Assembly (NCBI RefSeq): GCF_000186865.1
Contig: NW_008705562.1
Span: 2,061,141 to 2,125,140, forward strand
Length of the DNA: 64,000 bases
Source of the DNA: Aureococcus anophagefferens
Taxonomy: Eukaryota > Sar > Pelagophyceae > Pelagomonadales > Pelagomonadaceae
Reading direction: 5' to 3'
Below are positions 635 to 53,077 of this stretch, piece after piece. Made by a program: the position numbers and the translations under genes. The stretch's first letter is position 1, and each line of letters starts with the position of its first letter. The notes beneath the pieces are model-generated. The model saw only the letters and a program-made list of their open reading frames with translations, searched no databases and had not been told where the DNA came from.

Positions 635-2811
635 CTAGAGGAGCTCGAACGCGGGCTTCGCCTCCCGCGGCGCGAGCGCCGCGTCGACGTCGAGCGCGGC
701 CGCGCGGATCGCGCAGCCGAGGGCGACGGCCTCGTCGACGGAGACGGCCTCGCTCGCCGCGACGATCTTGGCCAGGGGCAGGCCCGTCACGCGCCGGAGG
801 AGCCGGCCGACGGCGGGCATGCGCGTCGCGCCGCCGACGAGGAGCACGGAGTCGAGCGGCGGCCCCGCGCCGTCGCCCGGGAGCGCGACGCCGGCGGCCT
901 CGCAGACGTCGCGCGTCGTCGCCTCGAGGCGCGCGAGGAGCGGCGCGCAGAGGGCCTCGAAGAGGCGCCGGGACACCGTCGCCTCGAGGTCGAGGGGCCT
1001 CCCGCCGCGCGCGCGCTTGCCGTCCTCGCCGACGCGCGCGAGGCCCCGCGCGCCCGCGACGACGTCCGCCTCCGACGACAGCGCGTGCTTGACCTGGGCA
1101 GCACAAGGGTGATTCAACGTCGCTTCAACGTGAGTGTTCCGCGCGCGCGCGTGCCGAAAAAAGCATCCGCGCTTCGAGACCGTTCCGAGAGATGATCGCT
1201 CGTCCAAAAATCAGCCGAAACGAGTGGAAAACGGCCGAGATATGAGCCTTTGAAGTTGGGAATTTCGCTCTCTTTTGCTGCCCTGTGCTTGACGCGCTCC
1301 GCCTCGGCGAGCAGGCGGAGCCGCGCCGTCGGCGCGGCGACGGGCAGGCCGTGCGCGTCGTAGAAGCGGTCGCTCAGGTGCTCCGCGAGCGCCGCGTCGA
1401 AGTCGTCGCCGCCGAGCTTCGCGTCGCCGCCCAGGCTCGCGAGCGTCGCGTTCGCGTCCGCCAAGAGGACGACGGACGCGTCGAAGGTGCCGCCGCCGAG
1501 ATCGAAGACGAGCACGCGCTGCGTCGCGCCGCCGCCGCGGACGCGCGAGCCGTAGGCCAGCGCGGCGGCCTCGGGCTCCGTGATGAGGTGCACGGCGTCG
1601 AAGCCGCCGAGGCGCGCGGCGGTGATCGTCGCCTCGCGCGCGGCGTCGTCGAAGCGCGCGGGCACGCCGACGACGGCGCGCCGCGCGTAGCCCGCCGGGG
1701 GCGCCGCGCCGGCCTCGGCGAGGCACGCGATGGCGTCGTCGCGGAGCTTGCGCACGACCTCCGCGCTGACCTCGGCGGCGGCGACGCGCGCGGGCAGCGC
1801 GGGCACTTTCAGCGTCGTCACGCCGGGGCCGTGGACGCGCGAGTCCTCGAGCGCGCCGACGCGCCGCCGCTCCTTGAGCGTCGCGTCGCGCGCGAGGATG
1901 CGCTTCACGCGCGAGCACACGGACGCGCCGTGCACCGCGTGGCCCCGGAGCGCCTCCGCGGCGTGCCCGACGACGGCCGCGACGCCCGTCTGCTCGTCGT
2001 CCCTCAGAGCCACGCGCCCCTCGAAGAAGTCCGCGTCGTCGCCGGCGACGAAGCAGACGACGGAGGGCACGAGGGGCGTGAGCAGCCGCGGCGCGCCGGA
2101 CGCGTCGACGGCGGCCACCGCGGAATTCGTCGTGCCGAGGTCGAGGCCGACGGACGAGCCCATCGACCCGAAGCCCGACGACGCCGCGGCGCCGCCCCGG
2201 GCCGCCGCCGTCGCGTTGCCCAGGAGCCAGGAGTACTCGTCGTCGTCCTGGGCGGACGCGGCGCCGTTGGCCGCGTAGGCCTCCGCGAGCGCGGCGTCGC
2301 CGGCCGCCACGGGCGCCGCGTCCGCCGCGACCTCGTCCCCGGGCGCGTCGCCGCGCGCCGTCGCCGCGAAGGCGAGGGCCGCGCGCGCGTCGAGCGCGAA
2401 GTCGACGGCGGACCCGTCGAGCACCTCGTGGCAGGACCGCACGCTGTCGAGGATCGACGCGCTCGCGGCGTCGTCCTCGCCCGCGAACTCGGCCTCGAGC
2501 TCTCCGAGGAGGCGCCGCAGCTCCGCGTCGTCGTCCTCGTTGCCGGAGAAGTAGGTCGACACGTCCACGGGCTCCTCGGCGCAGTCCATGGACGCGTGGA
2601 TCGTCACGCCCGCGTCGCGCTCCTCGCCCTCGTGGACCCAGCCCTCGTCGTCCATGACGTCGAACGAATCGCTCGACGTCGCGAAGCCGTCGCCGTCGCC
2701 GTCGAAGGCATGGCGGAGGGCGCGGCGACCGCGCGCCGGCCCGGGGGCGACGAGGGCAGAGGCGAGCCCGCAGAGTAGCAGCAGGATGCGGCCCAGCATG
2801 CGGCCCAGCAT
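635..2811 (-). CDS. Hsp70-like protein, ATPase domain only, probably plastid-targeted; one introner intron
   Basis: Two exons, 2811-1294 and 1093-635, joined across a 200-nt introner intron at a codon boundary, give about 658 residues. The chosen ATG starts a signal-peptide-like segment (MLGRMLGRILLLLCGLASALVAPG) whose ASALVAP resembles the ASAFAP cleavage site of secondary plastids. An acidic, Ala-rich region of about 200 residues follows. Then come the Hsp70 nucleotide-binding signatures: VGLDLGTTNSAV (phosphate 1), VFDLGGGTFDASV (phosphate 2) and, in exon 2, SVLLVGGATRMPAV (signature 3). The protein stops soon after the ATPase core, so the substrate-binding domain and lid are missing. It may be a regulatory or divergent Hsp70 rather than a classical chaperone. 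An in-frame GTG at 2886 could extend it but adds no signal-like sequence. The first two ATGs lie in a 12-bp tandem repeat. Confidence 0.8.
1094..1285 (-). mobile_element. Introner element, family 1, copy 1 (192 bp) inside the Hsp70-like gene
   Basis: A 192-bp insertion with terminal inverted repeats: ctgggcagca at the left and tgctgccctg at the right (complement cagggcagca). It is flanked by a perfect 8-bp target duplication, tgcttgac, at 1086-1093 and 1286-1293. The host gene is on the minus strand, where the removable intron is 1293 down to 1094 (200 nt): donor GTCAAGCA from the duplicated target, acceptor CAG from the transposon end. Removal restores the Hsp70 frame exactly (...ER|VKHALSS...). 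About 95% identical to the copy at 4266-4457. It is too short to encode a transposase, so it is non-autonomous. Confidence 0.93.
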
Positions 2812-3578: not shown

Positions 3579-6394
3579 TCAGTCCTGGTACTCGTCGATC
3601 GGGGACCAGATGTCGAGGAGGTAACGGCCCTGCTCCTTGAGGTCGCCGAGGGCCTTGAGGGCCGCGGCCTCGTCCGGCGCGGCCTTTGCGGCGACGAGCG
3701 CGTGCGCGAGCGCCGCGTGGACGTCCTTGGCCATGTTGTTGCCGTCGCCGCAGACGTAGACGCGGCCGTCCGTCGTCGCGAGGATCTTCGCGAGGGCCAC
3801 GGCGTCGTCGCGCATGAGGCTCTGGACGTAGACCTTCTTCGCCGTCTCGCGCGAGCACGCGAGCCGCAGGTTGCAGCCGCGCGCCGCGTGTGCCTGCATC
3901 TCCGCGCGGTAGAGCCAGTCCTGGTCGCGCGCGCGGCAGCCGAAGTAGAGCGTCGACGACGGCGGCGGCGCCGCGGCGGCCGGCGGGCGCGCGCCGGGGA
4001 TCATGGGTCGGGACCCGGGGAGCATGGGTCGGGACCCCGGCATGGCCGGCCGCGACCCGGGCATGGCCGGCCGCGACCCGGGCATCGCCGGCCGCGAGCC
4101 GGGCATCGCGGGCCGCGAGCCGGGCAGGGTCGCGGCGGGCGGCGGCGGCGCCTTGGCGGCCTTGAGGCGCGTTCGGTGGTCGAGGAAGCCCATGAAGGGC
4201 GCGACGCCCGTGCCCGGCCCGATCATGACGACGGGCGCGTCCGGGTCCTCGGGCAGCTGGAACGCCTGGGCAGCAAAAGGGTGATTCAACGTCGCTTCAA
4301 CGTGAGTGTTCCGCGCGCGCGCGTTCCGGGAAAAGCATCCACGCTTCGAGGCCGTTCCGAGAGATGATCGCTCGTCCAAAAATCAGCCGAAACGAGTGGG
4401 AACCGGCCGAGATCGGAGCCTTTGAAGTTGGGAATTTCGCTCTCTTTTGCTGCCCTGTGGAACGCCTCCGACGCCTTGAGGAAGACCTTGAGCGTGAGTG
4501 CCGGCGCCTCGCCCCGGAGGAAGGGCGCGAGCGTCTCCTCGAGCCAGGTCGTGCAGACGCCCTCGCGGTCGTGGAGCACGTCCGGGCCCGCGAGGCCGTG
4601 TTTGGCCGCGACGCCGGCGCCCGCGGTGAAGCGGACGACGGAGAAGGCGACGGCGGCGACGCCGTGGCGGCTCCGGCCGTCGGGCGCCAGCGGCGACGAC
4701 GCGACGGAGTAGTAGCGCGCCGACAGGGCCGGGAGCGCCCGCGCGAGCGCCCTCGCCGTCGGCGGCCGGCACGACTTGAGCGCGCCGAGGAGCTCGTAGG
4801 CCCGCAGCTTCGGCGCGGCGACGCAGGCCTCGTAGAGCTTGGCGCCCGCGGGGCGGGCGGCGAGGGCGAGGCAGGCGTCGCGGTCCCTCGCGTCGCCGCA
4901 CCACGCCGCGAGCGCGCGGAGGAGCGGCCGCGTCGGCGCCGCGCTCAGGTCCCGGCCCCACTCGAGGTCGTCGCCCAGGGCGGCCGCGTCGACGCCCAGG
5001 GCCTTCGCCGCCGCCGCGAGCGCCGGCGGCGGGTTCGGGCACTTGATGCCGATGGAGTCGCCGGGCTCGTAGCGCGCGCCCGAGCCCGCCAAATCGAACT
5101 CGCAGTGGATGACGCGGCGGTCGCCCTCGTTGCAGAGGTCGCGCGCGGCGACGACGGGCGCCTCGAAGGGCTTCGCCGCCGTGTGGGTCCCGCCGCGGCC
5201 CGCGTCCTCCGCGGCGGCCTCGGCGACGGCTTCGGCGACGGTCTCGTCGTCGGCGTCGCGCGGCGGTTTCGGGAGCTGCGCGGCGTCGAGACCCCCCGGC
5301 GCCGCCGCGAGGAACCTGGCCACGTCCAGCGCCTCGACGAGGCACGTCGCGCCCGCGGGCAGCGGGCCGAGGCAGTCCCTCGGCTCCGCGGGCTCGCCCA
5401 GGTCCGCCGCGGCCTCGACGACGCCGCCGTCCGCGAGCGCGCCGACGGCCGCGAGCGCGCCCCAGAGGCCGCAGACCCAGGGGTCGACGACGGCCTCGAG
5501 GCCCGTCGCCTCGTCGGCGCAGGCCAGCCCGTAGAACCGCTCGCCCCCGAGCTCGCCGAGGCGCTTGTCGATGGTCTTGCCCACGTGGCAGAACTTGTCG
5601 TAGTTCGTGTCGCCGAGGGCCAGCACCGCGTAGCGGACGCCCGCGAAGAGGTCCCCGGGCTGGCTCCGCTTGCGCGCGAAGCGCCAGAAGCGGTCCGCGC
5701 TGTCCGGCGCGTCGCCGTTGCCCGTCGTCGACGTCACGCAGACGCAGACGGACCCGGGGCCGAGCACCTGGCCGCCGTCGGCGCGGCGGTCGCGCCACGA
5801 GTCGAGCGGGCCGACGACGACGTCGCAGGCGGGCGACCGCGCCCGCAGCTCGTCGCCGATGTCCGCGGCGATGCAGGACGCGTTGCCCGTCTGCGACCCG
5901 TAGAGCACCGCGACGACGCGCGGCGCGGCGCCGTCCACAGCGACCGCGGCGGCCGCGGCCGGCGCGGCCGCGCCGCCCGCCGACGGCTGGAGCTTGGCGA
6001 CGACGGCGTCCTGGAAGGCGGCCGCCGTCGTCGCCTCGACGAGCGCCGTCGCGCCGAGGGCCGCGAGCCGCGCGGAGAGCGCCGCGCCGCACGCGCCGTC
6101 GCCTAGATCGACGACGGCGACGAGCAGGTCGTCGAGCCGGTCCTCGCTCCGCTTCAGGAAGCGCCAGAAGCGGTCGTAGCCCACGTCCTGGCCGCCGTCG
6201 CCCTCGGACGCGAGGACGACGGTCACGCTCCGCGCCTCGCTCAGCGAGCTCGCCGCCTTGCGCGTCAGGCCCGCGCAGCCCGCCTCGTCGCAGCCCGCGG
6301 CCTTGAGCTTGCTCTCCAGCGCGTTGGCGTAGGCCTCAGCCCGGGCCAGGTCCTTGCCGCCGAAGAGCACGGCGTCGCGCGCGATCTCGGCCAT
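3579..6394 (-). CDS. Diflavin reductase, methionine synthase reductase-like, with an extra degenerate flavodoxin domain; one introner intron
   Basis: Exons 6394-4466 and 4265-3579 give about 871 residues. The protein has an FMN flavodoxin domain (about 158-315: [34 protein letters not shown]). The stretch [14 protein letters not shown] and the [14 protein letters not shown] that follows fit methionine synthase reductase best. A ferredoxin-reductase-like FAD part ([21 protein letters not shown]) and an NADPH part ([42 protein letters not shown]) follow. It would pass electrons from NADPH through FAD and FMN to cob(II)alamin-bound methionine synthase. Residues 1-135 look like a second, decayed flavodoxin. 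The ATG at 6394 is the first good start; it is divergent from LSG1 with 178 bp between. NADPH-cytochrome P450 or sulfite-type reductases are less likely alternatives. Confidence 0.82.
3993..4134 (-). repeat. In-frame 21-bp repeats coding PGSRPAM heptapeptides
   Basis: Inside the NADPH-binding half of the reductase lie about six in-frame 21-bp units encoding PGSRPAM, then the variants [14 protein letters not shown] and PGARP. They sit between the [12 protein letters not shown] loop and the [13 protein letters not shown] strand, where the enzyme family normally has a short surface loop. The frame is kept, so the repeats should form a flexible Pro/Arg-rich insertion, and copy number is likely to vary between strains. 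Confidence 0.85.
4266..4457 (-). mobile_element. Introner element, family 1, copy 2 (192 bp) inside the reductase gene
   Basis: Same length and ends as the copy at 1094-1285 (ctgggcagca ... tgctgccctg), with about ten substitutions over 192 bp and no indels. The perfect 8-bp target duplication is tggaacgc at 4258-4265 and 4458-4465. On the host minus strand the removable intron is 4465 to 4266 (200 nt). It begins GCGTTCCA, a GC donor, and ends CAG. Exact removal gives ...[12 protein letters not shown]..., which matches the reductase family. The only GT in the duplicated target lies two bases further in and would shift the frame, so a GC-AG intron is the only precise reading seen. Confidence 0.93.
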
Positions 6395-23403: not shown

Positions 23404-23511
23404 GTCCGAAACGTAACTCGCGCGACCTAGGTCCATTCCCCGACGTCCGCCACGGGCTGTCCGAAATGTAACTCGCGACCTAGGTCAATTCCTCGACGTC
23501 CTCCACGGGCT
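23404..23511. repeat. Abutting tandem duplication (55 + 53 bp) at the 3' end of the ankyrin gene
   Basis: Copy 1 (23404-23458) and copy 2 (23459-23511) both read gtccgaaaYgtaactcgcg, then acctaggtc and gacgtcc.ccacgggct, with a few substitutions and one 2-bp indel. Copy 2 contains the ankyrin gene stop (cta at 23480-23482). Copy 1 carries the equivalent, unused stop. Confidence 0.9.
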
Positions 23512-26500
23512 CGAGCTCGCCGATGACCTCCGTCCGCGTCGACGACGCCAGGCCCCCGCCGTCGTCGAGGTCGTCGTTGCCGACGGTCCAGTCGAGGGGC
23601 CAGTTGCCGTTGCGGTGGAGGCGGATGCACTCCGCGAAGTCGCCGTCCATGACCGCGTGCGACATGGCCGCGAGCTGCGTCGCCGCCGCCGCGTGGCCGT
23701 GGACGAGCGCGAGCTGGCGCGGCGTGAGGCCGCGGCGGTCGCGCGCCGTCGCGTCCGCGCCGGCGGCGAGGAGCGCGGCGACGGCCGCGCGCGCGCCGAC
23801 GCGCGCGGCCGCGTGGAGCGGCGTCAGGCCGTCGCGGTCCGGCGCGTCGAGCACCGCCGCCCGCGCGGCCCGGTCCCGGGGCGCCAGGGCCGCGAGCGCG
23901 TGGCACGCGTTGCCGTGGCCGCGGTGCGCGGCGTGCCAGAGGGGCCCCCGGCCCGCCGCGTCCGCGCGCGCGGGGTCCGCGCCCGCGCCCAGGAGGCAGC
24001 GGCACGCGTCGGCGTCGCCGGAGGCCGCCAGCACCTGGAGGCACGTCGTCCCGTTGGCGCCGTGGCGCGCGTCGACGTCCCGCGGCCGGCCCGCGACGAG
24101 CGCCGCGAGCGTCGCGAGGTCCGGCGCGCCGCACGCGCGGAGGAGGGGCGTCGCGGGCCCGCCGTCGATGGGCGCGAGCGCGTCCGCGCCGGCGTCGAGG
24201 AGCGCGGCGACGGCGCCCGCGTCGCGCTGGGCGACGGCGAGCGCGAGCGCGCGGTCGAGTAAGGCCGCGTTCGTCCGCCGCGCGGGCGCCGCGCCGTCGC
24301 CGCCCGCCGCCAGGGCCCTGGCCGCGTCGAGGGCGACGGCCACGGTGCGCAGCTCGGCCTTGGCCGACGCGTGGTCGAAGCAGGCGCGCTCCAGCGCCGA
24401 CCGGCCCAACGAGTCCGCGGCCGTCGCGTCCGCGCCGGCCGCGAGGAGCGCGTGCGCGACGGCGACGTGGCCCCGGGCCAGCGCGGCCATGAGCGCCGTG
24501 GAGCCGTCGGGCCGCGGCGCGTCGACGTCGAAGACGGCGACGCGCTGGTCCAGGAAGATGCGCACCGCGTCCAAATCGCCCGTCTCGACGGCGACGAAGA
24601 ACGGCGTCGTCGCCCTTTGCGGCGGCGGCGGCGGCGGCGCGTCCGGCGATTGCACCGGCGCCGCGTCGCCCCGGGGGAGCACGTCCGCGCCGTCGAAGAG
24701 GGCGCCGTCGCAGGGGCCCAACGGCTCGACGCCCCGGAGGAGCAGGAGCTCCGCGAGCGCGTGGCGGCGCCGCGCGACGGCGACCTGTGTGGAATTCAAC
24801 CACTGGTTTGGGTGGTCCTGACCAAACTTCAGAACTCTCTAGCTCGGTCAAATCGAAGTCGATTCGGCTGATTTTGGGACGAATCGATTGCTCTCGTCGA
24901 GCTCTCGAAGCACGGCAGAAGAACTCGTGTCGAAACGGTCGCATACGCTCACATTGAAGTCGGGTTGAAGATTCGAATTCCACACAGACGGCGACGCGGA
25001 GCAGCGGCGCGCTGTCCTCGGGCCGCGGCCGCGCGGTCGCGTCGGACCGCAGCACGACCTCCGCCGCCCGCGGCTGGCATTTCGCGGCGGCGGCGGCCAG
25101 CGCGCCGTGGAGGTGCGCCGGCGCGGGCCCCGCGGCCGGCGACGTCGCCGCGAGCGCGAGCGCGGCCTCCAAGACGTCGTCGCGGCCCGCGGCCGCGGCG
25201 CGCGCGAGCACGGTCTCGCCGCCGGGCCCCGCGGCGTCGATGGCGAAGCAGCCCCGCGCCACGAGTCTCAAAGCGCGGTCGAAGTCGCCGTCGCCGATGG
25301 CCGCGCGCATCGCGTCGAGGCGCCGCGCCGCGCGGCCCCGGCCGCGCGCGGAATCGCGCGGCGTCCGCGCGCCCAAATCCCTCGCGCCGCTGTCGGCGCC
25401 CGCGCCGAGCAGCAGCGACGCCACGGCCCCGTCGTCGGCGCGCGCCGCGCGGTGCAGCGGCGCCGCGCCCGCCGCGTCCGCCGCCGCTAAAAGCCGGCCC
25501 CGCGCGCCGTCGTCGCCCGCGTGGAGCGCGACGAGGACCGCGGCCTGTGTGGGAACCAAATCTTCAACCCGACTTCAATTTGCGCGTAATCGAACGATTT
25601 GGACCAGGCTCTTTCACTGTGCTTCGAGAACTCGACGAGAGCAATCGATCCGTCCAAAAATCAGCCGAATCGACTTCGATTTGATTGAGATCGAGAATTC
25701 TCAAGTTTGGTCAGGACCCCCCAAACCAGTGGTTGGTTTCCACACAGACCGCGGCCGCGTCGTAGGCCCGGTGGCTCGCGGCGACGTGCAACGGCGTGCG
25801 GTGGTGCGGGTCCCTCGCCAGCGCCCCGAGCGACTGGTCGCCCTGGGCGAAGCGCAGCAGCAGCGCGAGCGCCTCGACGCGGTCCGCGGCCGCCGCGGCG
25901 TGGAGCGGCGACGCGAGCGGGGCCGGCGCGCCGCCCGCGGGCGCCGGCGCGTGGACCGCGCGCCGCACGGCGTCCGCCGCCGCGCCGTCGTCGCCCTCGG
26001 GCCCGTCGAGCAACACGCGGAGCGCCCGCGCGCCGCGCGGCGCGGCCGCGGCGGCCGCGCGCGCGAGCGCGGACAGGAGCGGCGGCGCCTCGAGGTGGCC
26101 GCCGCCGCGGCCCCGCCGGTCGCCGCCCGTCGCGGCCCAGAGCGCCGCGCCGTAGTGGTCCCGCGCGTCGCCCGGCGCCAATCCCTTGGGCCGCTCCGCC
26201 GCGTCCAACAGGCCCGACGACGGCTTCGCCGCGTCGCCGCCGCGCGCGAGAACGAGCGCGAGCAGGTCGTCGTCGCCGACGTCGACGGCCAGGGCGAGGA
26301 GCGCGGCGGCGCCGGCGCCGTCGGGCGACGGCACGCAGCCCCGGCGCAGGAGCGCCGCGGACCCGATGGGCCCGAGCACGCGGCTCCCGGTTCGCGCGGC
26401 CTCGTCGACGACCAGGTCGACGCCGGCGCTGTCGCCGTCGCGGGCCGCCGCCTCAAGCGCCGCGGCGCCGTCGCCCGCGTCGAGGCGGAAGTTGCCGCGC

Positions 26501-29500
26501 GCCGCGAGCTCGGCGACGCGCGCGTAGTCGCCGCCGTCGACGGCCGCGCGCATGGCGCGCAGGCGCACCTCGACGGCGCGGCGCCGCTCGCCCGGCGGCC
26601 GCGCGTCGCCGTCGCCGCCGTCGCCGCCCGCGCCCTCGCCGCAGACGTCGACGGGCGCGCGGCCCGCGGCGTCGGGCGCCGCCGCGACCGCGCCGCAGCG
26701 GAGCAGCGCGGCGACGGCGGCGACGCGCGCGGCCCGCGCGGCCTCGTGGAGCGCCGTGGCGCCGCCGTCCTCCGGCGAAACGCGGTCCACGGCGCAGGGC
26801 GCGCGCGCGAGCGCCGCGACGACCGACGCGGAGCCTACCGCCGCGGCGATCGCGAGCGGCGCGCGGCCCCGGCCGTCGCCCGCGACGTCCGGGTCCGCGC
26901 CGACGCGCAGGAGCGCGAGCACGGCGTCGCGGCGGCCCGCCGCCGCGGCCGCGCCCAGGGCCGTGAGCTCGTGCGCGGCCGCGCCGGTCCGCACATTCGC
27001 GGCGACGCGGCACCGCCGGTTCAGGTCCACGGGGCTCCGCCCGTGGTGCAATAAAATGGCCTTGAGCACCTCGGCGGCGTCGCAGCGGCCGCCGGGCCGC
27101 GCCGATTGGACGTCGTCGACGACGTCGAGCTCGCCGTCGCTCCCCGGGGTTTTCTCGAGGTAGTCCGCGGCGTCCGCGGGCGGCCACGCGCCCGCCGCGA
27201 GGAGCAGGGGCGTGCGGCCGCCGCAGTCCGGCCGCTCCGGGTCCGCGCCGCGGGCGAGCAGGAGCGCCGCGGCCTCGCCGCGCGTCCGGCCGCCGCCGAC
27301 GAATTTCGCCGCGCCCGCGGCGCCGCCGCCGCCGCAGACGACGTGGAGCGGCGTCTCCGCGCGCGCGTCGTCGGCGGCCCGCGCGTCGGCGCCGGCGTCG
27401 AGGAGCGCCCGGGCGAGGCAGCGCTCGCCCGGGTCGTCGCCGCTTTCGTCGCCCGCCGCGCGCGGCGACCCGGGCGGCCGCGGGCAGCCGTCGAGCAGCG
27501 CGCCCGACCGCGCCGCGGCGAGGAGCGGCGTCTCGCCCGCGGCGTCGGCCCTGTTCGGGTCCGCGCCCGCGTCCAGCAGCCGCTTCGCCGCGGGCCCGTG
27601 GCCCAGGCGGCAGGCGACGAGCAGCGCGGTCACCGCGCCGTCGCGGAGGCCCGCCGGCTCGTCGACGACGTAGTTGCCCCGGTCGACGTAGCGCAGCGTC
27701 GCCGGCTCGTCGCCGCAGAGCACGGACGCGCGGAAGCGGCCCAGCGTGTGGGCGATCTGGGCGTCGCCGGCCTCGAGGGCGATGGACAGCGGCCGCTTCG
27801 GGCGCTCCGCGCCCGACGGCGTGCTCGCGAGCGGGCCGTCGCGCGGCCGCGACGCGGACGCGCCGAAGCGCAGGAGCGCCCCGACGGCGCCCTTGGCGTG
27901 GGCCGCCGTCGCCACGCGCAGGGCCGTGTGGCCCGAGTCGTCCGTGGCGTCGACGTCGAGCATCTCCGCGAGCGCGTCGCCGCCGGCGCCCGCGTCCGAG
28001 CCCGCGGACGACCGCCGGCCGAGGCCCAGCAGCAGCTCGACGTTCTCGGGCCGGTCCGCCTCGGCGGCGTAGAAGAGGGCCGTCCGTCCCCGGGCGTCGC
28101 GCTTCTGGAGCGACGCGCGCGACCCCGACCGGCGCTTGAGGCCCGCGCGCTTGAGGCCCGCGTCCGCGGCGAGCTCGGGCGCGCCGAGGAGCGTCCGCAG
28201 GACGCTCGACGCCTCGGGGAGCGCCGCCGCGAGCATGAGGGCCGTCGCGAGGCGCGGGCCGTGGGGCGCGTCGACGTCGGGCCGCTTCCGGCCCCCGTCG
28301 GGCGCGCCGCCGGCCTCGGGCGCCGCCAGAAGCGCGGACACGAGCCGCGCGTCGCGCGCGTCCGCGGCGGCGACGGAGAGCGGGCTCCGGCCCTTGGCGT
28401 CCATGGCCAGCGGGTCCGCGCCGTGGGCCAGGAGCAGCGCGCAGACGTCGCGCGCGGACGCGGCCGTCACGGGCACCGCGCGGCTCCGCGCCGCGGCCTC
28501 GGCCGCGCGGCAGAGCGCGGAGCACCCGAGCGCGTCGCGCGCGTCCACGGCGCAGCGGCCCGTGGCCAGCAGCATCTTCGCGAGGTGCGTGTCGCCCCGC
28601 GCGGCGCAGGCCATCAGCGGCGTCCGCTTCTCCGGTCCGTGGTCCGCGTGGTTCGCGTCCGCGCCGAGCGTGAGCCAGAGCTCGGCGCCCTGGCCGTCGC
28701 CGTTGGCGCAGCAGCGCAGCAGCGCCGTGAAGCGGTCGTCGGGCGCCGCGGCGCAGACGTCGGCGGGGAAGTTGGCGAGCGCCGTGCCCGCGTTCCGCGG
28801 CAGCTCGCCGTCGCGGATGACGCTCCGGACGCTCCGCGCGACGTCCGCGGCCGACGACGCGTCGAAGGCCGCGGACCCGAGGCTCGCGCGGAGGTCCCGC
28901 GTCGCCGCGACGAGCTGGCGCGCGCGCGCGGACGCGTCGGCCTCGCCGGCCGCGGCCGCGCCGACGTCCGCGACCGCGTCGCGCTGCAGCAAGGCGGCGA
29001 CGCACGCGACGTGGCCCGCGCGCACCGCGTAGACCAGGGGCGGCACGCCGTCGCCGTCCGCCGCGTCGACGACGGCGCCCGCGGCGGCGAGGGGCGCGAC
29101 GACGGCCGCGCGGCCCCGCTCCGCGGCGAGGTGGAGCGGCGTCTTTTTGGTGAGCGGGTCCGACGCCGTCGCCGTCGCGCGGCACGTGCACCGCGTGCCG
29201 TCCTCGGCCTTGGCGAAGGCGCCGCCGGCGAGGGCCATGACGACGGCGCCGTGGCCCGCGACGGCCGCGGCCTCCAGAGCCGTCTCCGGGTGGAGGCCGA
29301 AGCGCCGGTCCGGGTGCGCGAGCAGCGCGCTCCGCGCGTCGCCGTCGGCCTCGCCCGCCGCGAGCTTCGCCAGGGACCGCAGGAGCGCCCGGGCGATCTC
29401 CGCGGACCCGCGGCGCGCGCAGCAGAGCAGGGGCGTCTCCCGCGCGCCGAAGCCGTCGGCCAAGGTCGGGTCCGCGCCGGACGCCAGCAAAGCCCGCGCG

Positions 29501-30192
29501 GCGTCGAGCGCGTCCGCGCGCACGGCCCCGAGCAGGGGCGTCTCGAAGGCCTTCTCCGAGTCGCCGAGCTCGGGCCCGTTCGCCGCGGCGCCGAGGCCCA
29601 CGAGCGCGCCGATGACGTCCGCGCGGCCGCTCCGCGCGGCCGCGAGCAGCGCCGTCACGCCCCTGCCCGCGGCGTCGCGCGCGACGTAGTCCGCGGGCAG
29701 GCGCCCGCGCCGCAGGGCCAGCAGCGCCACCTCGACCTTCGCCGGCGCCGACCGCAGCGCGTCCTCCAAGTCGCCGCCGTCGCGCCGCTTCTCGCGCGCC
29801 TCGCGGAGCGGTTCCAGGAGCGTGTCCAGGTCCGTGTTCGCGACGCGGGTGAGCAGGTCGAACCAGGCCGTGACGCCCTCCTGCGTGAGGCAGTCGAGCA
29901 CGCGCCGCTTGCCCGACGCCGCGTTGAAGTCGCTGAGCGCGAGGCAGTGCGGCCGGCCGGGCTGCGGCGCGCGCAGCACCGTCGTGCCCGCGGTGATCGT
30001 CATCTCCTTGCAGTACTTGTCGCGGTTCGTCTCCGTCATGTGCGTGTTGTCGAGGCGCAGCGTCAGGTTCTCCAGGTCCGCGGCGACGCGCACCCACTTG
30101 CCGCCGGCGACGAGCGACCCTTCCCGCGTGTAGACGTAGGCGTAGCCGCTGTGCTTCAGCGAGATCTCCTCGCTGTCCTCGCGGGACCGCAT
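23480..30192 (-). CDS. Giant PH-domain plus ankyrin-repeat protein; two introner introns
   Basis: Exons 30192-25756, 25544-24996 and 24784-23480, all joined at codon boundaries, give about 2,096 residues. The ATG at 30192 opens MRSREDSEEISLKHSGYAYV. Residues about 10-125 form a PH-like domain (GKWVRVAADLENLTLRLDN, KYCKEMTITAGTTV, KRRVLDCLTQEGVTAWFDLLTRV), a likely phosphoinositide or protein contact. The rest is several dozen ankyrin units of the form G-x-TPLL-AA-x-G-x-x-x-V-x-LLL-x-x-GADP, grouped into blocks with longer loops. There is no kinase, channel or death domain. A membrane-linked scaffold is the likely role. The two introner introns lie in the ankyrin region, leaving a 549-bp exon between them. 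Repetitive coding DNA explains the many long shadow frames. Confidence 0.88.
24785..24987 (-). mobile_element. Introner element, family 2, copy A (203 bp) in the ankyrin gene
   Basis: A 203-bp insertion with perfect 13-bp terminal inverted repeats (ctgtgtggaattc ... gaattccacacag) and an 8-bp target duplication, acggcgac, at 24777-24784 and 24988-24995. The intron on the host strand is 24995-24785 (211 nt), with donor GTCGCCGT from the target copy and acceptor CACAG from the element. Exact removal gives ...[13 protein letters not shown]... in phase 0. Internally it is the reverse complement of copy B, so it lies in the opposite orientation. It contains stop codons in the host frame. Confidence 0.93.
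25545..25747 (-). mobile_element. Introner element, family 2, copy B (203 bp) in the ankyrin gene
   Basis: 203 bp with inverted repeats ctgtgtgggaaccaa and ttggtttccacacag (14 of 15 positions complementary) and an 8-bp target duplication, accgcggc, at 25537-25544 and 25748-25755. The intron on the host strand is 25755-25545 (211 nt). Exact removal needs a GC donor (GCCGCGGT) and gives ...AYDAAAVLVALHAG... An alternative GT donor six bases in would also keep frame and add two Ala. It is homologous to copy A along its length but inverted. Confidence 0.92.
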
Positions 30193-30404
30193 TGTTTTGT
30201 GGCGCTCTCGGCCCGCGCGCCACCGCGGCGGCCGCGGCGCGCCGGGCAGGCAAGCGACGCGGTGCGAACGCCGGCCGCTCGGGTGCGTCGCGCGGCGCCG
30301 CGCCACAAACAGAGGCTAATGCCTGGCCTTGGCCGAGCTTTTTTTACCGCAATTCACAAAAGATCAACGAAGCGACGTTGACCAAGTTATTGAACTTCCT
30401 CGTC
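30193..30404. promoter_or_regulatory. Divergent promoter region, ankyrin (-) / transporter (+)
   Basis: 212 bp. The part next to the transporter is AT-richer (tttttttaccgcaattcacaaaagatcaacgaagcg, about 30330-30376), a plausible core-promoter zone. No motif was recognised with confidence. Confidence 0.3.
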
Positions 30405-48261: not shown

Positions 48262-51200
48262 ATGGCGAGAAGCGTCGTCTTGGCGCTCCTGGCCGCCCGG
48301 GCGTCGGCGCTCTGCGTCCTGCGGGACGCGACCGTCTGCTGGGGGAACGAGCACCAGTACGTCGAGAACACGGACTTGGTCGACGGCATCTACGTCGAAT
48401 TGGAGATGGCGTTCGCCGACGTCGACGGCGACGGCGACCTCGACCTCGTCGTGGGCGAATACGACGGCACCCTCAACTACTACGAGAACGTCGGGAACGC
48501 GACAGCGCCGAGCTACGAGGCCGTCACCGGCAGCGCGAACCCCTTCGACGGCATCGACGTCGGTTCCTGGAGCAAGCCCGCGTTCGCCGACGTCGACGGC
48601 GACGGCGACCTCGACCTCGTCGTGGGCACATACGAGGGCGCCCTCTTCTACTACGAGAACATCGGGAACGCGACGTCGCCGACCTACGAGGCCGTCACCG
48701 GCGCCGCGAGCCCCTTCGACGGCATCGAAGTCGGTTTCGACAGCAAGCCCGTGCTCGTCGACGTCGACGGCGACGGCGACCTCGACCTCGTCGTGGGCGA
48801 AGACGACGGCAACCTCTACTACTACGAGAACGTCGGGTCCGCGACGTCGCCGAGCTACGAGGCCGTCACCGGCAGCGCGAACCCCTTCAACGGTATCAAC
48901 GTCGGTTCCTACAGCGCGCCCGCGTTCGCCGACCTCGACGGCGACGGCGACCTCGACCTCGTCGTGGGCGAAGAGTGGGGCTCCCTCTACTACTTCGAGA
49001 ACATCGGGTCCGCGACCTCGCCGAGCTACGAGGCCGTCACCGGCGCCGCGAACCCTTTCGACGGCATCGACGTCAGTCTCCGCGACGGCATCTATCGGGA
49101 TCACAGCGCGCCCGCGCTCTTCGACGTCGACGGCGACGGCGACCTCGACCTCGTCGTATCCCTCGACGGCTTTCTCAACTACTACGAGATCGTCGGGTCC
49201 GCGGCGTCGCCGAGCTACGAGGCCGTCACCGGTAGCGCGAGCCCCTTCGACGGCATCGACGTCGGTTACCTCAGCACGCCCGCGCTCGCCGACCTCGACG
49301 GCGACGGCGACCTCGACCTCGTCGTGGGCGAATGGGCAGGCGTCCTCTTCTACTACGAGAACGTCGGGTCCGCGGCGTCGCCGAGCTACGCGGCCGTCAC
49401 CGGCAGCGCGAACCCCTTCGACGGCATCGACGACGGTGGCTTCAGTTTTCCCGCGTTCGGCGACCTCGACGGCGACGGCGACCTCGACCTCGTCGTGGGC
49501 GATTGGACCCTCACTATGGGCGTAGCGGAGGAAGGCGCCCTCAACTACTATGAGAACGTCGGGTCCGCGACGTCGCCGAGCTACGAGGCCGTGACCGGCG
49601 CCGCGAACCCTGTCGACGGCATCAAAGTCGGTGGCTACGACTTTTCATATGCGTTTGCGCCCGCGTTCGCCGACCTCGACGGCGACGGCGACCTCGACCT
49701 CGTCGTGGGCGAATACTGGGGCGGCCTCTACTACTACGACAACGTCGGGTCCGCGACGTCGCCGAGCTACGCGGCCGTCACCGGCAGCGCGAACCCCTTC
49801 GATGCCATCGCCGTCGGTTCCCACAGCACGCCCGCGTTCAGTGACCTCGACGGCGACAGCGACCTCGACCTCGTCGTGGGCGAACAGGTAGGCCTCCTCA
49901 ACTACTACGAGAACGTCGGGAACGCGACGTCGCCGAGCTACAGAGCCGTCACCGGTAGCGCGAACCCCTTCGACGCCATCTCCGTCCCTCTGAGCAGCGC
50001 GCCCGCGCTCGCCGACCTCGACGGCGACGGCGACCTCGACCTCGTCTTGGGCCAATTCGACGGCCACCTCTACTTCTTCGCGAACGGTTACTGCACGCAA
50101 GGCGACACTGCCTGCCGTGGCAGCGGCCTCTGCGATCTGACCTACGTCATCTTCTCCGAAGCGTCCTGCCAGTGCCTCGGCGGCTTCGACCACGAGGTGC
50201 CCGACGTGGTCATGCAGTGCGGCGAGTGCCAGGCGGGCTTCTACGGGAGCACGTGCGAGCCGTGCCCGCAAGGGGGTGACGAAGACCGCAACGCGCCGCG
50301 CCTCACGGACACCTGCGGCGTCGCGGGGAGCGGCCGGTCGCGCGGCTCCTGCGACGACGGTAGGGGCGGCACCGGGGCGTGCACGTGCTTCGGCGACGTC
50401 TTCTCGGGGAGCGGCTGCACGGAGGGGACGTGTCCAGCGGGGACCGTCGAGACCGCGACCTTCGATGGCTACTACAACATCGCAAACTGCACGTCGTGCG
50501 ACGCGGGCACCTTCTCGGCCGAGGGCGACCCGCAGTGTACGAAGTGCGCCGCGGGCAAGTCCTCGGCCGCGGGCGCGAGCGAGTGCGCCAGCTGCTCCGC
50601 GGGGTCGTATTCTGCTCCGGGCGCGAGCGAGTGCTCAACTTGCACAGTCAGGACGTACCAGGGCGAGACCGGCCAGTCGAGCTGCGCGCTCGCGGACGCC
50701 GGGTCCTTCGTCGACGCGATCGGCGCCTCTGAGCAGACCGCGTGCGATGCGGGCAAGTACAGCGGCTCCGGCGCGGACGAGTGCGTCGACTGCGAGGCCG
50801 GGACGTACCAGGGCGAGACCGGCCAGTCGAGCTGCGCGCTCGCGGACGCCGGGTCCTTCGTCCAAGCGGACGGCGCGTCGGAGCAGACCGCGTGCGATGC
50901 GGGCAAGTACAGCGGCTCCGGCGCGGACGAGTGCGTCGACTGCGAGGCCGGGACGTACCAGGACGCGACGGGCCAGTCGAGCTGCGCGCTCGCGGACGCC
51001 GGGTCCTTCGTCGACGCGATCGGCGCCTCTGAGCAGATCGCGTGCGATGCGGGCAAGTACAGCGGCTCCGGCGCGAGCGAGTGCGACGACTGCGCGGCCG
51101 GGACGTACCAGGGCGAGACGGGCCAGTCGAGCTGCAAGCTCGCGGACGGCGGGTCCTTCGTCCAAGCGGACGGCGCGTCGGAGCAGACCGCGTGCGATGC

Positions 51201-52950
51201 GGGCAAGTACAGCGGCTCCGGCGCGAGCGAGTGCGACGACTGCGCGGCCGGGACGTACCAGGACGCGACGGGCCAGTCGAGCTGCAAGCTCGCGGACGGC
51301 GGGTCCTTCGTCGACGCGATGGGCGCCTCGGAGCAGCGCGAATGCCCCGCGGGCTCATTCTCCGGCTCCGCTTCGGGCAAGTGCGACGACTGCGTGGCCG
51401 GCACGTTCCAGGAGCTGACGGGCCAGTCGAGCTGCGCGCTCGCGGGTCAGGGCTTCTACGTCGGGAGCACTGGAGCTTCGGAGCAGACTGCTTGCCCCGC
51501 GGGAAGCTTCTCCGGCTCCGGCGCGAGCGAGTGCGACGACTGCGCGGCCGGGACGTACCAGGACGCGACGGGCCAGTCGAGCTGCAAGCTCGCGGACGCC
51601 GGCTCCTTCGTCGACGCGATCAGCGCCTCGGAGCAGGCGGCGTGCGATGCGGGCAAGTACAGCGGCTCCGCCGCGAGCGAGTGCATCGACTGCGCGGCCG
51701 GCACATTCCAGGAGTCGACGGGTCAGTCGAGCTGCCTCCTCGCAAATGCCGGGTCCTTCGTCGATGCGATCAGCGCCTCGGAGCAGGCCGCGTGCCCCGC
51801 GGGAAGCTTCTCCGGCTCCGGCGCGAGCGAGTGCGTCGACTGTGAGGCCGGGACGTACCAGGACGCGACCGGCCAGTCGGGCTGCAAGCTCGCGGACGCC
51901 GGGTCCTTCGTGAACGAAATCGGCGCCTCGGAGCAGGCGGCGTGCGATGCGGGCAAGTACAGCGGCTCCGCCGCGAGCGAGTGCGAGGCTTGCGCGACCG
52001 GCACGTTCCAGGAGTCGACGGGCCGGTCAAGCTGCAAGCTCGCGGGTCAAGGCTTCTACGTCGGAAGCACTGGAGCTTCGGAGCAGACCGTGTGCCCCGC
52101 GGGCAACTTCTCCGGCTCCGGCGCGAGCGCATGCGACGAGTGCGAGATCGGGACCTTCAGCGCCGAGGGCGACTCATCCTGCACGTCGTGCCCCGCGGGC
52201 TTCTCGAGCAGCGCCGCCGGAGCGAGCGAGTGCAGCGCGTGCCCGGTCGGGACCTTCAAGGGCGCCGGCTCGGGGCCGTGCGTCGAGTGCGGCGTCGGTA
52301 CCTACGGACCCGAGACCGGGCAGTCGAGCTGCCTCCTCGCAAATGCCGGTTCCTTCGTCGACGACACCGGCGCATCAGAGCAGACCGCGTGCCCCGCGGG
52401 CTCGTTCTCCGGCTCCGGCGCGAGCGAGTGCGCGATGTGCGAGCGCCGGACGTACCAGTCCCTGGTGGGTCAGGCGAGCTGCGCCCTCGCGGACGGCGGG
52501 TCCTTCGTCGACTTGGCTGGCGCCTCCGAGCAGACCGCGTGCCCCGCGGGCTCGTTCTCCGGCTCCGGCGCGAGCGAGTGCGCGATGTGCGAGCGCGGGA
52601 CGTACCAGTCCCTGGTGGGTCAGGCGAGCTGCGCCCTCGCGGACGGCGGGTCCTTCGTCGACTTGGCTGGCGCCTCCGAGCAGACCGCGTGCCCCGCGGG
52701 CTCGTTCTCCGGCTCCGGCGCGAGCGAGTGCGCGATGTGCGAGCGCGGGACGTACCAGTCCCTGGTGGGTCAGGCGAGCTGCGCCCTCGCGGACGGCGGG
52801 TCCTTCGTCGACTTGGCTGGCGCCTCCGAGCAGACCGCGTGCCCCGCGGGCTCGTTCTCCGGCTCCGGCGCGAGCGAGTGCGCGATGTGCGAGCGCGGGA
52901 CGTACCAGTCCCTGGTAGATCGAGGACGGAACACTGCAGCGGAATATTGA
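48262..52950 (+). CDS. Giant secreted/surface protein, 5' part: VCBS/FG-GAP repeats then 50-residue Cys-rich repeats
   Basis: MARSVVLALLAARASALC is a signal peptide. Ten VCBS/FG-GAP-type repeats of about 57 residues follow (core FADVDGDGDLDLVVGEYDG, then LNYYENVGNATAPSYEAVTG), typical of calcium-binding beta-propellers in adhesion proteins. An EGF-like Cys segment leads into about sixteen 50-residue Cys repeats (CPAGSFSGSGASECxxC, AGTYQ, GQSSCALADAGSFV) of GCC2/GCC3, ephrin-receptor-like type. The frame meets a stop at 52948-52950 in an odd tail (VDRGRNTAAEY). A GT-AG removal of 52915-53077 would join it in frame to the next feature, which continues the same repeat, so this is most likely one gene. 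The predicted role is a cell-surface adhesin or receptor ectodomain. Confidence 0.78.
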   Translation: MARSVVLALLAARASALCVLRDATVCWGNEHQYVENTDLVDGIYVELEMAFADVDGDGDLDLVVGEYDGTLNYYENVGNATAPSYEAVTGSANPFDGIDVGSWSKPAFADVDGDGDLDLVVGTYEGALFYYENIGNATSPTYEAVTGAASPFDGIEVGFDSKPVLVDVDGDGDLDLVVGEDDGNLYYYENVGSATSPSYEAVTGSANPFNGINVGSYSAPAFADLDGDGDLDLVVGEEWGSLYYFENIGSATSPSYEAVTGAANPFDGIDVSLRDGIYRDHSAPALFDVDGDGDLDLVVSLDGFLNYYEIVGSAASPSYEAVTGSASPFDGIDVGYLSTPALADLDGDGDLDLVVGEWAGVLFYYENVGSAASPSYAAVTGSANPFDGIDDGGFSFPAFGDLDGDGDLDLVVGDWTLTMGVAEEGALNYYENVGSATSPSYEAVTGAANPVDGIKVGGYDFSYAFAPAFADLDGDGDLDLVVGEYWGGLYYYDNVGSATSPSYAAVTGSANPFDAIAVGSHSTPAFSDLDGDSDLDLVVGEQVGLLNYYENVGNATSPSYRAVTGSANPFDAISVPLSSAPALADLDGDGDLDLVLGQFDGHLYFFANGYCTQGDTACRGSGLCDLTYVIFSEASCQCLGGFDHEVPDVVMQCGECQAGFYGSTCEPCPQGGDEDRNAPRLTDTCGVAGSGRSRGSCDDGRGGTGACTCFGDVFSGSGCTEGTCPAGTVETATFDGYYNIANCTSCDAGTFSAEGDPQCTKCAAGKSSAAGASECASCSAGSYSAPGASECSTCTVRTYQGETGQSSCALADAGSFVDAIGASEQTACDAGKYSGSGADECVDCEAGTYQGETGQSSCALADAGSFVQADGASEQTACDAGKYSGSGADECVDCEAGTYQDATGQSSCALADAGSFVDAIGASEQIACDAGKYSGSGASECDDCAAGTYQGETGQSSCKLADGGSFVQADGASEQTACDAGKYSGSGASECDDCAAGTYQDATGQSSCKLADGGSFVDAMGASEQRECPAGSFSGSASGKCDDCVAGTFQELTGQSSCALAGQGFYVGSTGASEQTACPAGSFSGSGASECDDCAAGTYQDATGQSSCKLADAGSFVDAISASEQAACDAGKYSGSAASECIDCAAGTFQESTGQSSCLLANAGSFVDAISASEQAACPAGSFSGSGASECVDCEAGTYQDATGQSGCKLADAGSFVNEIGASEQAACDAGKYSGSAASECEACATGTFQESTGRSSCKLAGQGFYVGSTGASEQTVCPAGNFSGSGASACDECEIGTFSAEGDSSCTSCPAGFSSSAAGASECSACPVGTFKGAGSGPCVECGVGTYGPETGQSSCLLANAGSFVDDTGASEQTACPAGSFSGSGASECAMCERRTYQSLVGQASCALADGGSFVDLAGASEQTACPAGSFSGSGASECAMCERGTYQSLVGQASCALADGGSFVDLAGASEQTACPAGSFSGSGASECAMCERGTYQSLVGQASCALADGGSFVDLAGASEQTACPAGSFSGSGASECAMCERGTYQSLVDRGRNTAAEY
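48421..50075 (+). repeat. 171-bp tandem repeats coding VCBS/FG-GAP units
   Basis: The string gacctcgacctcgtcgtgggc recurs at 48436, 48607, 48778 and 48949, a 171-bp (57-residue) period that continues with small length changes for ten units. Each codes DxDGDGDLDLVVG, a Ca2+-binding loop. Confidence 0.9.
50580..52920 (+). repeat. 150-bp tandem repeats coding 50-residue Cys modules
   Basis: Period exactly 150 bp: tgcgatgcgggcaagtac ends at 50760, 50910, 51060 and 51210, and cgcgatgtgc ends at 52440, 52590, 52740 and 52890. The last units, from about 52440, appear identical over 150 bp, so recent homogenisation or assembly collapse is likely. The same 150-bp phase resumes at 53500-53930 in the 3' part. 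Confidence 0.92.
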
Positions 52951-53077
52951 GGAGGCGGTCTCTTCGGGGCGGCGCAGGCTTTGGGCCTCGCGGCGTACGC
53001 TTTCGGGGTCGGCGCTCGGCTCTGCGACCGTCGACGTCGAATTGAGCTCCGAAGGCATACTCGCAGCGACCGTGGAG

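Follow-up and report, generated by a model that had tools for sequence, protein, structure and literature searches.

Two families of short repeated elements in genes of Aureococcus anophagefferens are, judging from the DNA, very probably introners whose splice donor comes from the duplicated target and whose acceptor is a CAG at an element end, the number of acceptor-bearing ends setting the orientation that can work in a gene. In the proposed mechanism, non-autonomous DNA transposons of short length, bounded by inverted ends and flanked by 8-bp target duplications, would become spliceosomal introns on landing in a gene, with the first two bases (GT or GC) of the duplication lying upstream on the coding strand acting as the donor and the element's own end, CAG, acting as the acceptor. 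The intron would consist of the duplication plus the element, so its removal would be exact. The acceptor state of an end would be set by its three terminal bases, mainly by base 2 (CTG read inward is CAG read outward). Family 2, with an acceptor end on both sides, would work in either orientation; family 1, with a single acceptor end, would work only when that end lies on the 3′ side of the gene, and the family-1 subfamilies, whose bodies are nearly the same and whose acceptors sit on opposite ends, would flip in gene orientation together with that end.

Materials and methods

The window is the whole stretch of 64,000 nucleotides of A. anophagefferens DNA analysed here; it is 73% GC, and its genes, among them those for a chlorophyll a/b-binding protein and a sigma-70-like protein, are those of a photosynthetic eukaryote. 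The assembly searched comprised 49 Mb in 86 contigs. Profiles of family 1 (192 bp) and family 2 (203 bp) gave 36 and 56 full-length copies, respectively, in the sampled DNA, which consisted of the window, 20 random 10-kb stretches, 20 of the other 39 best family-1 places and the best 40 family-2 places. The random stretches contain about 49 kb of N, with two of these loci (L010 and L022) entirely N, and a run of N also occupies positions 57276-57515 of the window. Family-1 copies fetched by similarity over-represent the subfamily of the query, and an unbiased subsample was counted separately. Because the genome-wide patterns demanded exact ends, their counts cover only some of the copies; the family-2 pattern, for example, misses copy B of the window.

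For strand calling, 20 long open reading frames (ORFs) of the window with high third-position GC were compared with Pfam, and the 16 of them that matched at E up to 0.001 were used to train a codon model, which uses no element information. In leave-one-ORF-out trials on 500-nt pieces, this model called both strand and frame correctly in 479 of 480 cases. The table of element ends against gene strand comprises 85 genic copies. Seven of the 92 copies were left out, two for lack of a coding call (L005, L030) and five for shifted ends (L071, L058:996, L042, L003:312, L073:353); by eye, GT/GC and CAG also fit the shifted-end copies, L073:353 excepted, two of them with one duplication mismatch. The protein check was based on 20 conceptual peptides, from which ten with recognisable domains, five per orientation, were chosen.

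Results

Two inverted copies of one element in an ankyrin gene

Copies A and B (Table 1) are inverted copies of one MITE-like element. Copy A and the reverse complement of copy B are identical at 170 of 203 positions in an ungapped comparison, against 112/229 for the same-strand alignment, and the pair is the longest among the four inverted repeats listed for the window. The termini of both copies read CTGTGTGG and CCACACAG, and each copy is enclosed by its own exact 8-bp repeat, ACGGCGAC around copy A and ACCGCGGC around copy B. The host is a minus-strand ankyrin-repeat gene (Pfam Ank_2, E 1.9e-33 and 2.3e-66 in the two flanking ORFs). When both elements are precisely removed, the gene is open across 1,520 + 183 + 434 codons, with both putative introns in phase 0; each element left in place would add 211 nt, which is no multiple of three. 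The two copies thus look like exactly removable, introner-like insertions. Family 2 is not a chance pattern, since its exact-end pattern matched the genome 294 times against 0 for the reversed control. The preliminary description, made from the letters of the window, had already proposed that the copies are mutual reverse complements with a duplication each, that both lie in phase 0 in this gene and can be removed without loss of frame, and that a CAG is available at either terminus. All of this was confirmed, and both ends of family 2 indeed appear able to serve. It had named no donor; the donors predicted here are GT for copy A and GC for copy B.

Table 1 Elements, duplications and predicted splice features. 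Positions refer to the window, except for the two larger siblings, which are numbered within their own loci (L011, L081)
Feature	Position	Strand	Details
Copy A, family-2 element	24785..24987	+	203 bp; body against gene
Copy A, predicted acceptor CAG	24787-24785	-	
Copy A, target duplication, downstream on coding strand	24777..24784	-	GTCGCCGT
Copy A, target duplication, upstream on coding strand	24988..24995	-	GTCGCCGT; first two bases, proposed GT donor
Copy A, proposed intron	24995-24785	-	
Copy B, family-2 element	25545..25747	-	203 bp; body along gene
Copy B, predicted acceptor CAG	25547-25545	-	
Copy B, target duplication, downstream on coding strand	25537..25544	-	GCCGCGGT
Copy B, target duplication, upstream on coding strand	25748..25755	-	GCCGCGGT; first two bases, proposed GC donor
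Copy B, proposed intron	25755-25545	-	
Ankyrin gene, open frame upstream of copy B	25756..30315	-	1,520 codons
Ankyrin gene, exon between copies A and B	24996..25544	-	549 nt, 183 codons, open
Ankyrin gene, open frame downstream of copy A	23483..24784	-	434 codons to stop
Family-1 element	1094..1285	-	192 bp; duplications 1086-1093 and 1286-1293, coding GTCAAGCA; along minus-strand Hsp70-like gene
Family-1 element	4266..4457	-	192 bp; duplications 4258-4265 and 4458-4465, coding GCGTTCCA; along minus-strand flavodoxin/FAD-binding gene
Larger sibling	L011 6986-7487		502 bp; family-1-type ends, both reading CAGGGCAGGAAAAG inward and so without outward CAG; exact 8-bp repeat
Second sibling copy	L081 301-779		479 bp; family-1-type ends, no outward CAG; without matching 8-bp repeat; no coding signal in flanks

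The two family-1 copies of the window read CAGGGCAGC...GCTGCCCAG on the coding strand, with an outward CAG at one end only. Including one duplication, the length is 211 bp for family 2 and 200 bp for family 1, and the consensus strings of the families share, by eye, the core CGGCTGATTTTTGGACGA. An 8-bp duplication with at most one mismatch was found for 35 of 36 family-1 and 54 of 56 family-2 copies. Genome-wide, exact ends at family-1 length were found in 1,016 one-ended copies (520 + 496), six two-ended copies and none without an acceptor end, and the reversed control gave 0; for family 2, 294 two-ended and seven one-ended copies were found, again with 0 for the reversed controls. Single family-1 ends occurred 2,691 times, against seven for the control. 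The expectation that family 1 has CAG at one end only therefore holds for 1,016 of 1,022 exact-ended copies.

Frame and protein continuity after removal

Continuity of the reading frame on precise removal was demonstrated in both families: the frames on the left and right matched in 34/34 family-1 and 52/53 family-2 copies with at most one duplication mismatch, and the same frame test on uninterrupted coding DNA was passed in 1,300 of 1,406 cases. Retention, at the same time, would shift the frame in 83 of the 85 genic copies and introduce an in-frame stop in 73. In seven of the ten chosen peptides, a Pfam domain spans the junction left by removal, six times above the curated cut-off; these domains are myosin, ABC1 and chloride channel for elements lying along the gene, and myosin, ligand-gated channel and SNF2, plus a PH match below the cut-off, for elements lying against it. 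Among the other three peptides searched against Pfam, one had no match and two had the domain elsewhere than at the junction. Compared with a solved myosin, the myosin host L063 has no gap near the junction, which falls in a strongly conserved stretch; in the SNF2 host L056, the junction is ungapped against a solved structure, and the nearest gap, of one residue, lies about seven residues upstream.

It is extremely improbable that these copies are ordinary MITE insertions that break genes or accompany their decay, given that the frames are intact and in register after precise removal, that domains cross the junction and that GT/GC and CAG are invariant in the genic copies. The elements have the features expected of introners, namely, many near-identical copies at unrelated gene positions, a frame restored on removal and candidate splice sites, GT/GC and CAG, at the boundaries.

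The donor dinucleotide

The duplication copy lying upstream on the coding strand begins with GT or GC in all 32 family-1 and all 53 family-2 genic copies (85/85), where these dinucleotides have a background frequency of 0.19 for the coding strand and 0.22 for the opposite one. GC accounts for 16/32 of these putative donors in family 1 and 25/53 in family 2, and no extended donor consensus beyond GT/GC was found among the genic copies.

A donor inside the element, GTGG at bases 5-8, might be used instead together with the CAG end, so that the element would carry both splice sites and 12 extra bases (eight of duplication and four of element), that is, four codons, would stay in the message. Such a 12-base mode is described for one introner family of an Aureococcus sp. 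(PMC9860276, Fig. 2F legend), and an inner GT is present at bases 5-6 of the donor side in 50/53 family-2 copies, including 23 of the 25 with a GC-starting duplication. This mode needs no GT/GC in the duplication, yet all 53 family-2 copies have one there; the inner GT is lost in three of the 53, the first bases of family 1 (CAGGGC) offer no inner donor, and four added residues would break the conserved myosin stretch of L063. With the duplication GT/GC invariant, use of the inner donor is disfavoured and highly improbable, and the first two bases of the duplication are retained as the predicted donor.

Acceptor ends and orientation

The coding-strand 3′ end of the element is CAG in 85 of 85 clean-ended genic copies. 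In family 2, the 53 genic copies comprise 27 with the body along the gene and 26 with it against the gene, and the 46 two-ended ones divide into 25 and 21; the orientation of the latter is independent of sequence similarity, as the nearest neighbour had the same orientation with a frequency of 0.496, equal to the shuffled value of 0.496. The 39 one-ended copies (32 of family 1 and seven of family 2) all have their CAG on the 3′ side of the gene, with the body reversed in 11 of them. When the CAG is at the right end, 28 copies lie along and 0 against the gene; when it is at the left end, 0 lie along and 11 against (Fisher 6e-10). All 32 genic family-1 copies follow this pattern, six of them being reversed copies with nearly the same body and the acceptor at the other end. 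The family-1 subfamilies thus carry the acceptor CAG at opposite ends of nearly the same body; in the six reversed copies, the non-acceptor end reads inward CAG in four and CGG or CCG in the other two. In the unbiased subsample, family 1 lies along the gene in five copies and against it in six, and family 2 in four and six. Family 1 as a whole is unbiased because it contains two polarity subfamilies with CAG on opposite ends. So, in the sequences sampled, orientation in genes goes with the acceptor end and not with the body.

These counts modify what had been predicted for the two families. The strand-bias comparison proposed in the preliminary description was run on the 85 genic copies: two-way insertion of family 2 without bias was found as expected (27:26, and 25:21 for two-ended copies), and the overall bias foreseen for family 1 was absent (5:6). 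The one-way orientation expected of family 1 is seen for the CAG end (3′ side in 32/32) and not for the family body.

Exceptions to the usual number of acceptor ends are the six two-ended family-1 copies (on C4, C9, C13 twice, C19 and C21) and the seven one-ended family-2 copies. Two of the latter, C9:496656 and C14:852344, are the sampled copies L053 and L054, and both fit the rule.

A further comparison is possible between the two ends of one element. In family 2, CTG has been lost at the donor-side end in 7/53 copies and at the acceptor-side end in 0/53 (Fisher 0.013), and the next five positions (bases 4-8) have changed 13 times on the donor side and ten times on the acceptor side. As far as these substitutions tell, the constraint is on the three bases serving as the predicted acceptor.

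It is unlikely that orientation and the GT/GC dinucleotide stem from insertion itself, through a transposase preference or a link to transcription, rather than from later selection for splicing. Insertion would agree with the frequency of GT/GC at the duplication start on the non-coding strand in family 1 (15/32), with the presence of GT/GC at a duplication start in L005, L030 and L050, which have a weak or no coding call, and with the enrichment of the copies in coding DNA (coding criteria passed by 90/92 copies vs 1,406/2,000 random positions), a setting with few non-coding copies in which target preference is inseparable from selection. In family 2, however, the two ends are equal and the body is oriented at random, so that a preference insensitive to the gene cannot explain why GT/GC occurs on the coding strand in 51/51 copies and on the other strand in 10/51; nor does insertion explain why CTG is kept solely at the acceptor-side end within one element. 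We infer that the elements are spliced and that selection removes wrongly oriented copies. For family 1, a certain target preference may exist in addition, given its opposite-strand GT/GC of 15/32 against 0.22. The phases of family 2 (14/5/32) also depart from the 19.9/13.7/17.4 expected from donor availability (p 5.6e-5): phase 2 is in excess (32/51), and the last exon base before the duplication is C in 65%. The phase-2 excess and this C perhaps reflect a target preference.

The orientation of family 1 could also be set by some other one-sided signal in the body, such as a branch point or a pyrimidine tract, which the CAG merely accompanies. The branch motif YTNAY precedes the acceptor in 25/26 family-1 copies lying along the gene. 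It precedes the acceptor in 18/27 family-2 copies along the gene as well, is absent from all six reversed family-1 copies, and is found in only 8/26 reversed family-2 copies, and therefore does not explain orientation. Its rarity in reversed copies, like the lack of an extended donor consensus, counts against the introner reading. The six reversed family-1 copies have nearly the same body, yet their frame is continuous and their CAG is on the 3′ side; the terminal repeat of the family-1 subfamilies differs at base 9 too. A body signal is accordingly disfavoured as the determinant of family-1 orientation and very unlikely, and the terminal CAG is kept as the probable one.

Related elements without an acceptor end

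The larger siblings listed in Table 1 have ends of the family-1 type. The L011 sibling has a coding signal on one side only and two stops on the other side; its joined coding score was -2 with 240-nt flanks and 23, margin 60, with 300-nt flanks, which just passes the coding criterion. As one clean case without an acceptor, it is consistent with the view that the acceptor is made by base 2 of the terminal repeat. Beyond families 1 and 2, a scan of the sampled DNA for inverted ends combined with 8-bp repeats yielded 36 candidates, among them the L011 sibling; most of the 36 are apparently GC-rich or tandem-repeat matches. At 48405-52985 of the window, one plus-strand frame contains long coding tandem repeats whose periods are 171 and 150 bp.

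Discussion

Introners of Aureococcus are associated with 8-bp target duplications. Those of A. anophagefferens, as Huff, Zilberman and Roy are said to have described in Nature in 2016, are short non-autonomous transposons that carry one splice site and co-opt the other from the duplicated target. Earlier work has documented introners that combine inverted ends, target duplications and a donor taken over from the target (PMC9860276, PMC7789003). A. anophagefferens introners are described as always having direct repeats, constant-length terminal inverted repeats and canonical splice motifs (PMC7789003); a characteristic length of ~210 bp, and a 210-bp intron peak in a pelagophyte that is linked to introners, are mentioned elsewhere (PMC9481584). 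The present elements, of 211 and 200 bp, are like A. anophagefferens introners in terminal inverted repeats, duplication and length, and the features of the pelagophyte type (terminal inverted repeats, an 8-bp duplication and ~210 bp) were all found in them. In a protein search, one protein had a named relative at 51% identity in an unclassified pelagophyte, beside closer matches of up to 99%, which is suggestive of a pelagophyte host. They differ in that two families with different numbers of acceptor ends are present and in that orientation flips with the acceptor end.

The survey of Gozashti et al. 2022 (PMC9860276) describes a carried 3′ site with a 5′ site from the duplication in Symbiodinium (Fig. 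2B), and some families in which GC makes up as much as 50% of the donors; the co-opted donor, the inverted ends and the GC donors are alike here. The Aureococcus sp. case of the same text (Fig. 2F), with both splice sites carried and 12 bp added, is unlike the elements described here. The search in that survey also compared same- and opposite-orientation introns, and two-way insertion was therefore at least foreseen. The introners of Amoebophrya (PMC7789003) are repeated introns with inverted and direct repeats, as here; unlike the present GT/GC...CAG boundaries and 8-bp duplications, they have mostly non-canonical splice sites and variable direct repeats of 3-5 nt. A rule linking orientation with whether or not each end is an acceptor was not found in the literature within reach of the search, partial texts included, a reach that stops short of Huff et al. 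2016. The one-end/two-end orientation rule may be new.

Insertion and later selection for splicing are hard to separate as causes of introner orientation. The subfamilies described here vary naturally at the terminal bases, with a body that stays nearly the same, and orientation in genes tracks those bases; they thus offer evidence, at the level of DNA, suggesting that the transcribed strand filters insertions, with one base singled out. In a wider form of the proposal, which we consider slightly better than an even bet, the presence of zero, one or two acceptor ends, which depends mainly on base 2 of each terminal repeat, would sort related transposons into plain MITEs outside reading frames (such as the 502-bp sibling in L011), one-way introners (family 1) and strand-blind introners (family 2). 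If true, it would take one or two point changes to make an intron generator out of an ordinary MITE and to determine which orientation survives in genes.

MITEs of the hAT type have 8-bp duplications and CAGGG-like ends. The 8-bp duplication of the present elements is similar, as is the non-acceptor end of family 1, which reads CAGGG inward. A Pfam search of the species' own genome gave no match for the hAT dimerisation domain (PF05699) or for KDZ, with the respective controls likewise silent, and no match for MULE, with controls that did respond.

Additionally, the 549-nt exon between copies A and B is a multiple of three in length and lies between two phase-0 introns that are 84% complementary. 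If these introns pair in the pre-mRNA, this exon could be more readily skipped or circularised, with the frame kept.
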